From NCBI GenBank assembly GCA_903871545.1, contig CAIQHG010000034.1:1-64000 (forward strand): a stretch of DNA of 64,000 nt, written 5' to 3'. Both the position numbers and the translations under genes were made by a program. Below are positions 46,220-50,100 of this stretch, in pieces (the first letter of the stretch is position 1; each line of letters opens with the position of its first letter). Source of the DNA: an uncultured Burkholderiales bacterium. GTDB taxonomy: Bacteria > Pseudomonadota > Gammaproteobacteria > Burkholderiales > Burkholderiaceae_C. The notes beneath the pieces were generated by a model. The model saw only the letters and a program-made list of their open reading frames with translations, had not been told where the DNA came from and ran no database searches.

Positions 46220-48937
46220 TTATATGTTAGGAGCTAACAACCTTCTCAGCGCGTGTTCTTCAGTTCCTTGCCTTTTAGCTAAATCACTAACTTGGTCCGC
46301 CCCAATTCTTCCTACGTTGAAGTATTTAGCACTTGGGTGAGCGATATAAAAGCCGCACACACTAGCCGCGGGAGACATAGCAAGGCTTTCAGTCAAAGAC
46401 ATCCCAATGTCGGTGCATTGCAAAACATTAAACATTTCCTTTTTAACACTGTGATCTGGACACGCGGGATACCCTGGAGCCGGGCGAATTCCAACGTACT
46501 TTTCTGCAATTAAGTCTTGAACACTCAAGTCCTCCTCATCGCTGTAACCCCAAAGGTCCATTCTCACCCTAGCATGAAAGCACTCTGCCATGGCCTCAGC
46601 TAAACGGTCTGCTAATGCTTTAAACATAATTGCACTGTAGTCGTCGTGATCGTCCATGAAAAATTTTTCCCTCAACTCCACCCCTATGCCGGACGTCACT
46701 GCAAACATGCCGACATAGTCAGCGACTCCGCTTTGCCCAACAAAATCGGACAAACACCTATTGGGGCGACCATCGGGCTTTGTTGTTTGCTGGCGCAGTC
46801 CTGACCAAGTCAACAACCTGTCTCTTCTCGTTTCATCGCTCCACAAAACAATATCGTCCCCGATCGCGTTTGCAGGATACAAACCCACTATCGCTTGAGC
46901 CGTTAACCATCGACCGTCAATCAAGCGAGTAAGCATTCTTCTTGCATCACTCATGAGACGCACCGCTTCCGCGCCCACAACATCGTCTTTAAGAATAGCT
47001 GGATAAGGGCCCGCCAGATCCCATGTTTGGAAAAAAGGTCCCCAATCTATAAACTTTTCAAGATCCGATAAGTTAAAGTTTTTAAATACCCTTCGTCCAA
47101 TAAATTTGGGGACAGTTGGCTTGTAATTGATCCAATCTACTTTTGCTTTATTTTCTCTGGCTTTTGTAAGCGTTAAAAGCGGAGTTTGTTTTTTATTGGC
47201 ATGCTGGTGTCTTACGCGGTCATAGTCCGCATTTAGCTCTTCAATAAAAGCACTTGCCTTGTTAGATAAAAGTCCCTGCGCTACTCCCACGCTCCTTGAT
47301 GCATCCGGGACATAAACCACTGGGCCCTCATAATGAGGTGCAATTTTCACCGCCGTGTGAACGCGACTGGTTGTTGCACCACCTATTAACAAGGGTATCT
47401 TGCGGATCCTAAAGTAATCATCCTTTTGCATCTCACTTGCAACATACTGCATTTCCTCCAAACTTGGCGTAATCAAACCCGATAGCCCAATAATGTCTGC
47501 ACCTTGAATTTTTGCATTCGCAAGTATTTCGTGGCAGGGCACCATCACGCCCATATTGACTACATCAAAATTATTGCATTGCAGTACAACTGTGACAATA
47601 TTTTTACCGATATCATGAACGTCACCTTTGACTGTTGCGATGACTATTTTCCCTTTGGTTTTTACCTCTTCGCCTGCCTCTTTTTGTCTTATTTTTTCTG
47701 CCTCTATGTAGGGAATCAAATGCGCCACAGCTTGCTTCATGACCCGAGCAGATTTGACAACTTGTGGTAAAAACATCTTGCCTTGGCCAAATAAATCACC
47801 AACAATGTTCATGCCCTCCATCAGCGGGCCCTCAATCACCTCTAAGGGTCGGCCCCCGCGTAATAAGATCTCCTGATAGGCCTCTTCTGTGTCTAAGGTA
47901 ATGAACTCTGTGATGCCGTGTACCAATGCATGAGACAACCGCTGGGTGACATTAACTGGACTGTCTAAGCTCCCTCGCCAACTATTTTTTTCGCTCACAT
48001 CTTTTGCAGACCCTTTGGCCTGCTCTGCAACCTCAATCAATCTCTCTGCCGCATCCTCTCTGCGGTTTAAAACCACGTCCTCAACTCGCTCCTTCAATAC
48101 TGGCTCTAAATCGTCGTAAACTCCGATCATTCCCGCATTTACGATGCCCATGTCCATTCCTGCTTTAATGGCATGGTAGAGAAAAACGGTGTGAATTGCC
48201 TCCCTTACTGGGTCATTGCCCCGAAAAGAAAAACTGACATTGGAGACCCCCCCAGAGACCTTTGCACCAGGCAGGTTTTGTTTTATCCAACGCGTTGCAT
48301 TTATAAAGTCAACGGCGTAATTGTTGTGCTCCTCAATTCCCGTAGCTACCGCAAATATATTCGGATCAAAGATGATGTCCTCGGGCGCAAAATCCAATCT
48401 CTCGACTAGTAGTTTATAAGCGCGCGCGCAAATCTCAATTTTGCGCTCATATGTATCAGCTTGACCTTTTTCGTCAAACGCCATCACCACGGTTGCGGCT
48501 CCGTAGCGTTTGATGAGTTTGGCTTGACGCAAAAACTCCTCCTCTCCCTCTTTCATGCTGATGGAGTTAACGATCCCTTTGCCCTGTAAACAGCGTAGTC
48601 CAGCCTCTATAACTGACCACTTGGAGCTGTCCACCATTATTGGGACTCTTGCTATGTCGGGTTCAGAGGCAAGCAAGTTAAGAAACTTAACCATCGCAGC
48701 TTGGCTATCAAGCATGGCCTCATCCATGTTGATATCTATAATTTGCGCTCCATTTTCGACCTGTTGTCGAGCAACTTGAAGAGCCTGTTCGTACTCTTCG
48801 TTTAGGATCATACGAGCAAAGGCTTTTGAACCAGTTACATTAGTGCGCTCACCAATGTTGACAAACAATGTGCTTTGGTCAATCAACACTGGTTCTAATC
48901 CAGCAAGCCGAAGTGGGGATATATTATCTAAATTCAT
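46220..48937 (-). CDS. metH: Methionine synthase, pterin/cobalamin/activation modules (metH2)
   Basis: [15 protein letters not shown]-like start; [12 protein letters not shown] cobalamin-binding DxHxxG; C-term activation domain. Confidence 0.96.
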
Positions 48938-48942
48938 TCACA

Positions 48943-48969
48943 CTCACCTGAAGATATTGAACAGGTGAG
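48943..48969 (-). promoter_or_regulatory. Anti-Shine-Dalgarno hairpin (expression platform) of metH2
   Basis: CTCACCTG-ttcaatatctt-CAGGTGAG; right arm contains SD AGGTGAG 5 nt before ATG; left arm shares CTC with the riboswitch pseudoknot. Confidence 0.8.
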
Positions 48970-49033
48970 CGTGGTTAGATTTTTTGAATTGTCCCAAGCC
49001 TGTCAAATAAATTTGATGCAACGCTCCTTGGTC
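48964..49033 (-). ncRNA. S-adenosylhomocysteine (SAH) riboswitch aptamer candidate
   Basis: CCAAGGAGCGTTGCATCAAATTTATTTGACAGGCTTGGGAC...CCACGCTCACC: P1 CCAAG/CTTGG, P2 TCAAA/TTTGA, pseudoknot GAGCGT/ACGCTC. Confidence 0.88.
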
Positions 49034-49053
49034 ATTAAATTTTACTACTTTTT

Positions 49054-50100
49054 TTATTCTGCGTAAAAAACGCCTCTGGTAATTTTTCTCGTCTGCAAGC
49101 TATCCACGCTTTTTGCAATGGCCGCGATATGCTCGGGCGTTGTCCCACAACACCCGCCTAAAATATTAACAAGTCCGCTGCTTGCAAAATCATGCAACAA
49201 ACGGCTAGTTACCTCTGGGGTCTCATCAAAGCCCGTGTCACTCATTGGATTTGGAAGGCCTGCGTTAGGATAGCAACTTATAAAGGTGTCTACAGCGATC
49301 TTCGACAACTCTTGCATATAAGGTCGCATTAGTGCCGCCCCTAGGGCACAATTTAATCCAACGGCCAAAGGCTTTGCATGTCTAATGCTGTGCCAAAAAG
49401 CCGTAACCGTTTGCCCACTTAATATACGCCCCGAAGCGTCCGTAACCGTACCGCTTATGATCAATGGCAATCTTTCCTTGGATTGATCAAAATACTCTTC
49501 AATCGCAAATAGGGCTGCCTTAGCGTTTAAGGTATCAAATATAGTCTCAACCATCAACACATCAGCCCCATTTTCCACCAAAGCTTGTACTTGCTGAAAA
49601 TAAGCCGCTCTGAGCTCCTCAAATGTCACATTCCTAGCTCCTGGGTCATTGACATCAGGGGATAAACTGGCAGTTTTAGGGGTAGGTCCAAGGGCCCCTA
49701 CAACGAAGCGGGGTTTGTCCGCCGTTGAAAACTCATCGCACGCGCGACGTGCCAGCTTTGTGGAAGCCGCATTCATCTCTACTGCGTACTCTTGCATGTC
49801 GTAATCTGCTTGAGCAATCGTTGTGGCACCAAAAGTATTGGTCTCTATTAAATCAGCACCTGAAGCTAAGTACCCGCGGTGAATATCCAAAATCACATCG
49901 GGTCGAGTTAAGCTCAATAATTCGTTGTTACCTTTAACGTCTTTGTGAAAATCTTTAAACCGTTCTGATCTAAAGTTTTCCTCCGTCAATTTAAAACGCT
50001 GAATCATGGTCCCCATTGCCCCGTCTAATATGGCAATTCTCTTTCTCAATATTCCAGGCAATTCCTTAGCTCTGGTGTATGTGTTATCTGGCGTTTTCAT
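49054..50100 (-). CDS. metH: Methionine synthase, homocysteine S-methyltransferase module (metH1)
   Basis: KRIAILDGAMGTMIQRFKLTEENFR; VGLNCALGAALMRPYM; GGCCGTTPEHI. Confidence 0.96.
   Translation of the reverse strand: MKTPDNTYTRAKELPGILRKRIAILDGAMGTMIQRFKLTEENFRSERFKDFHKDVKGNNELLSLTRPDVILDIHRGYLASGADLIETNTFGATTIAQADYDMQEYAVEMNAASTKLARRACDEFSTADKPRFVVGALGPTPKTASLSPDVNDPGARNVTFEELRAAYFQQVQALVENGADVLMVETIFDTLNAKAALFAIEEYFDQSKERLPLIISGTVTDASGRILSGQTVTAFWHSIRHAKPLAVGLNCALGAALMRPYMQELSKIAVDTFISCYPNAGLPNPMSDTGFDETPEVTSRLLHDFASSGLVNILGGCCGTTPEHIAAIAKSVDSLQTRKITRGVFYAE

Follow-up and report, generated by a model that had tools for sequence, protein, structure and literature searches.

An SAH riboswitch ahead of one half of a split methionine synthase in a Burkholderiales bacterium, with a probable private promoter and a predicted translational ON switch

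The SAH riboswitch is tied to SAM-cycle genes and occurs in beta- and gamma-proteobacteria (PMC4239095). For Comamonadaceae, Leyn et al. (2014) list MetH among the taxon-specific members of the SAH riboswitch regulon (PMC4239095), and SAH riboswitch control of metH in this family is thus already published. Genes for MetH divided into parts are also on record, as a split metH (metHa/metHb) in Burkholderia (PMC4364669) and as a three-part MetH in Phaeobacter (PMC5764234). The locus analyzed here shares the riboswitch, the target gene family and the bacterial family with the Comamonadaceae regulon; split halves, a private promoter and a platform that hides the SD are not described in main-text passages of that report (PMC4239095). 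With Burkholderia and Phaeobacter it shares a MetH encoded in separate genes, whereas the Burkholderia-type split genes have no SAH riboswitch match in the loci fetched, and the MetH of Phaeobacter is split differently. As a riboswitch, the element belongs to a regulon already described and is no surprise there; new here are the probable private promoter, the platform anatomy, which is of two kinds, and the response of only one enzyme half to SAH, which we infer.

The analyzed stretch of 64,000 nucleotides (the window) comes from an uncultured Burkholderiales bacterium. Two of its genes align to successive parts of MetH and together make up one MetH, according to domain search and alignment:

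46220..48937, minus strand: metH2, 905 aa, with folate-binding, B12-binding and activation domains (PF00809, PF02607, PF02310, PF02965)
49054..50100, minus strand: metH1, 348 aa, with the homocysteine S-methyltransferase domain (PF02574 only)

The first-pass annotation, made from the sequence without database searches, had called these genes the halves of one enzyme, and the domains bear this out: PF02574 is in metH1 and the other MetH domains (pterin-binding, two B12-binding, activation) are in metH2. The source genome has one PF02574 match, and every domain of a cobalamin-dependent MetH is present, spread over two genes, without a fused copy.

The same annotation had placed an SAH riboswitch between metH1, the homocysteine-binding half, and metH2, the folate, B12 and activation half. 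All sequences that it named were found on the minus strand where it had put them, and the parts of the aptamer are as follows:

48960..49035, minus strand: SAH riboswitch RF01057, aptamer and start of the platform (Rfam cmscan, 40.7 bits)
49028..49031, minus strand: P1 5' strand CCAA, pairing with TTGG at 48997-48994; compensatory changes at two of the four pairs
48994..48997, minus strand: P1 3' strand TTGG, pairing with CCAA at 49031-49028
49003..49016, minus strand: P2 hairpin TCAAA/TTTGA (49016-49012 / 49007-49003); four of the five pairs changed on both sides
49021..49026, minus strand: pseudoknot 5' strand GAGCGT, pairing with ACGCTC at 48972-48967
48967..48972, minus strand: pseudoknot 3' strand ACGCTC, which also lies inside the 12-bp anti-SD stem

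The Rfam scan that the annotation had suggested as a check gave a score above the gathering cut-off of 37, with an E-value of 4e-4 for the whole window against all families and of 5.5e-6 in a single-family search of the source genome. It was the sole RNA-family match within the 64-kb window, with none ahead of metH1. RF01057 is located before SAM-cycle genes (ahcY, metH, metF), and the two copies in the source genome precede metH2 and ahcY. In a 16-sequence alignment of metH2 leaders, 98.3% of the cells of P1, P2 and the pseudoknot are standard-paired, compared with 31-42% when the partners are slid; seven pairs have two-sided changes, and the covariation score exceeds those of all 500 shuffles. 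P1 is paired in 100% and P2 in 94.9% of the cells, six pairs of these two helices being changed on both sides; the pseudoknot GAGCGy/rCGCUC is paired in 100% of the cells, and the core positions are invariant throughout the 16 sequences. Across 110 homologous loci, the closing pair of the pseudoknot is U-A, C-G or U-G in 109, under a parse that does not reward pairing. Of 200 dinucleotide shuffles, 199 fold less well than 48926-49035 (z -2.6).

Score, covariation and position confirm that the element is a genuine SAH riboswitch, and P1, P2 and the pseudoknot, whose conservation at homologous loci had been made a condition of the proposal, covary in relatives. Membership in the family suggests SAH as the ligand. 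The pairings had been proposed as complete; P2 and the pseudoknot are present as described, and P1 is present with only four good pairs in the window, where the outermost three pairs in Rfam's model are non-standard. The element thus resembles the RF01057 family in its sequence core, P1, P2, pseudoknot and association with a SAM-cycle gene, and differs from it in the four-pair P1 and in a 12-bp SD-hiding stem that takes up the whole pseudoknot 3' strand.

The riboswitch before metH2 is a standard feature of the window's bacterial family. Of 80 genomes sampled from this family, a search model built from the 16-sequence alignment found it before metH2 in 76, before metH1 in one (L125) and before neither in three, the sample being mostly one genome per genus, taken from those with good metH2 matches and not at random. 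As for the named loci, 36 carry it before metH2 and one carries it before metH1 (L006). Mapped onto the metH2 tree, the labels require four changes, compared with a mean of 34.4 after shuffling. No riboswitch match was found at 18 loci with a fused metH (Oxalobacteraceae, Methylophilaceae, Polynucleobacter), nor at the split-metH loci fetched from Burkholderia, Paraburkholderia, Caballeronia and Cupriavidus. Three loci (L138, L140, L181) have metH2 without an SAH riboswitch match in the upstream stretch fetched; these are likely losses and useful natural controls. Where the riboswitch precedes metH1 (L006:3005-3080 and L125:3808-3892), it comes with a separate TAAAAT box and a matching stem that hides the SD, and in L125 the metH halves are about 33 nt apart. 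A weak match to the SAH model (22.3 bits) was seen in L029 (4631-4550, minus strand), on the opposite strand and away from the metH2 leader.

From the intercistronic position, the first-pass annotation had concluded that the element could tune the two MetH subunits differently. Two features upstream of P1 bear on this:

49039..49044, minus strand: -10 box TAAAAT, likely belonging to a private promoter of metH2; TAnAAT is conserved in relatives
49067-49062, minus strand: weak -35 box TTTACG, with a 17-nt spacer to TAAAAT

A TAnAAT box ends 7-16 nt (mostly 9-10 nt) before P1 in 105 of the 110 homologous leaders, compared with one of 1318 background windows farther upstream. A box of the same type precedes the ahcY riboswitch. 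No alignment column stands out as a conserved -35 box, and a promoter match inside the aptamer (TTGACA-16-AAAAAT, 49006-48979) was rejected, as it overlaps P2 and the number of matches in the region is at shuffle level. metH1 lies within 150 nt upstream of P1 in only ten of the 110 loci and 0.6-4.5 kb away in 52, while 38 have no metH1 within nearly 5 kb on that strand. The -10 box directly before P1, together with the fact that most relatives have metH1 and metH2 far apart, makes the riboswitch the probable 5' leader of a separate metH2 transcript, which would start near P1. Its position between the halves is best regarded as a local, minority arrangement, and the comparison does not support this position as the point of the element.

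Alternatively, the element could be an intercistronic part of a metH1-metH2 operon, tuning the second cistron without a separate transcript. In the window, the metH1 stop codon lies 22 nt before P1 and no terminator-like site was found between the two genes on the minus strand, so read-through is plausible; nevertheless, we consider an operon without a separate transcript unlikely, since the -10 box is kept even with the end of metH1 only some tens of nucleotides away (TAAAAT in the window, L005 and L010; TAGAAT in L028) and such adjacency is itself rare. Moreover, in a sister genome of the same genus (G081), a gene-like ORF lies on the opposite strand between metH1 and metH2 (L186, 4187-4711, minus strand); there, metH2 needs its own promoter and a shared transcript is probably impossible.

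In the leader transcript of metH2, the strand that follows the aptamer pairs with the SD:

48969-48962, minus strand: anti-SD (8 nt) CTCACCTG, pairing with the SD arm CAGGTGAG
48950-48943, minus strand: SD arm CAGGTGAG, 5 nt before the ATG at 48937
48962..48973, minus strand: complete anti-SD strand CACGCTCACCTG, forming a 12-bp hairpin with 48950-48939 (-19.5 kcal/mol)
48939..48950, minus strand: complete SD strand CAGGTGAGTGTG, holding the SD AGGTGAG (48949-48943); an equivalent stem is found in 75 loci

The hairpin that had been proposed to bury the metH2 SD is real, and its 12 bp in the source genome make it longer than previously stated. At this length, the anti-SD hairpin takes up the pseudoknot 3' strand completely, with each of its six nucleotides. 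The pseudoknot and the hairpin compete through overlapping strands, as had been claimed, and the overlap, then given as CTC, comprises the whole pseudoknot 3' strand. Because the hairpin contains this entire strand, the predicted translational ON switch for metH2 is well supported, and the anatomy of hairpin and pseudoknot agrees with the sign predicted earlier, ON with SAH. We infer both this direction and a translational rather than transcriptional level of control.

The earlier statement that SAH binding frees the SD was too strong. Formation of the pseudoknot would withdraw its 3' strand from the hairpin, but a 5-bp remnant (ACCTG/CAGGT), which is compatible with the pseudoknot, can still pair and cover part of the SD; the calculated energies are about -4.2 kcal/mol for this remnant, -11.3 kcal/mol for the full 8-bp stem and -7.9 kcal/mol for the pseudoknot duplex. 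In secondary-structure ensembles, which neglect tertiary structure and ligand energy, enforcing the pseudoknot raised the unpaired fraction of the SD from 0.00 to 0.17 in the window and from 0.04 to 0.28 as a class mean. As the SD is only partly opened in these ensembles, the predicted ON effect is partial, a lowered barrier rather than full exposure.

In 75 of the 110 loci (class A), the strand after the pseudoknot forms 6-8 uninterrupted pairs with the SD, which lies 2-10 nt upstream of the start codon. With the sequence between the arms shuffled, 11.5 such loci are expected, in a test that held the SD and CTC fixed and for a class that is itself selected by having the stem. None of the class A leaders examined extends the anti-SD stem as far as the window's. 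Part of the stem's conservation follows from other constraints, as the pseudoknot fixes CTC and ribosome binding fixes GGTGAG. Compensatory departures are seen in L142 (CTCACCA/TGGTGAG) and L173 (CTCACTC/GAGTGAG), and at metH1 in L006 (CTCACT/AGTGAG).

Twenty five of the 110 loci (class B), including Sphaerotilaceae (such as Roseateles, Mitsuaria, Albitalea, Aquincola), keep CTCACC/GGTGAG with the GGTGAG arm 16-56 nt before the start codon, which indicates that direct hiding of the SD does not apply throughout. The stem is likewise kept in ahcY leaders. With GGTGAG so distant from the start codon, the stem may serve a different function, and the element might act on transcription, through Rho access or as an attenuator, instead of or besides SD access. 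For the window we regard this as quite improbable: no T-run follows the stem, no terminator-like match was found there, and the stem lies precisely over the SD, 5 nt from the ATG.

The second RF01057 match of the source genome (55.2 bits; L001, G000:C72:23610-23695) lies before ahcY, as expected of an SAH regulon. It resembles the metH2 copy in the aptamer, the type of -10 box before P1 and the CTCACC/GGTGAG stem; in contrast to that copy, its GGTGAG is not the SD of ahcY, since about 95 nt separate the pseudoknot from the ahcY start codon. GGTGA was found within 60 nt in 24 of 25 ahcY leaders, most of which have their start codon 58-136 nt further downstream. A role of the P1 3' strand as anti-SD is suggestive only in ahcY leaders (11 of 25, compared with 2.7 expected) and not convincing in class B (6 of 25, compared with 3.5 expected). 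An open frame after AGGTGAG in L001 was rejected as a leader peptide, the segment being a non-coding GTGGTT element in other ahcY leaders. In class B examples (L025, L037, L157, L172, L187, all upstream of metH2), GGTGAG is often inside a GGCCGC/GCGGCC inverted repeat. A translational relay in which this hairpin would release a distal SD was also rejected, as pairing of the start region was 0.43 both with and without the enforced pseudoknot.

Taken as a whole, the explanation that an SAH riboswitch forms the 5' leader of metH2, is transcribed from a private promoter and raises metH2 translation in response to SAH is highly probable in our judgment. Transcription would probably start at the promoter with the box TAAAAT (49044-49039), a few nucleotides from P1, and read-through from metH1 may add further metH2 transcript. 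Without SAH, the pseudoknot 3' strand would be drawn into the hairpin with the metH2 SD and translation would be low. SAH binding would stabilize P1, P2 and the pseudoknot and so withdraw the pseudoknot 3' strand, leaving at most the weak 5-bp hairpin over the SD, and translation of metH2 would rise. As metH1 is without the element, the amount of MetH2 per MetH1 should increase with SAH. The suggestion that the two subunits are tuned unequally thus keeps its force, although by way of separate promoters rather than by intercistronic tuning.

Compared with relatives, the metH2 copy of the window has a short P1 and a low score for the family (40.7 bits, compared with 55.2 bits for the ahcY copy of the same genome), as would a decaying, inactive copy whose sequence is kept by recent descent; this is very improbable given the invariant core, the intact pseudoknot, P2 and anti-SD stem, and the length of that stem, which exceeds that of any other class A leader examined. 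Also very improbable is an SAH-like fold with a changed ligand preference, such as SAM or another adenosyl compound, as the core agrees with that of the family and the gene under control is one suited to SAH recycling.

In this family, SAH may control only the catalytic-core half, MetH2, through private promoter and riboswitch, with MetH1 made independently and the subunit ratio itself set by SAH; the platform would come in two designs, one that hides the SD directly and another that occurs in Sphaerotilaceae, and a few genomes would have the switch on metH1 instead. We hold this broader reading with about even confidence. The locus offers a clean example of a split enzyme with one half apparently under riboswitch control and the other half free of it, and makes it testable whether a metabolite sets the stoichiometry of enzyme subunits and whether MetH2 is then limiting. 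The 110 leaders also form a compact set for dissecting an ON-type pseudoknot riboswitch that trades a structural strand with an anti-SD stem.

No full-length MetE above the cut-off was found in the source genome, and a search for MesX (PF08908), run without a positive control, gave no match there. Another contig encodes a PRK09121-type short methionine synthase (346 aa; L193, G000:C59:84853-85863), a possible second methionine synthase, so that MetH is not necessarily the sole enzyme of this kind in the source genome.
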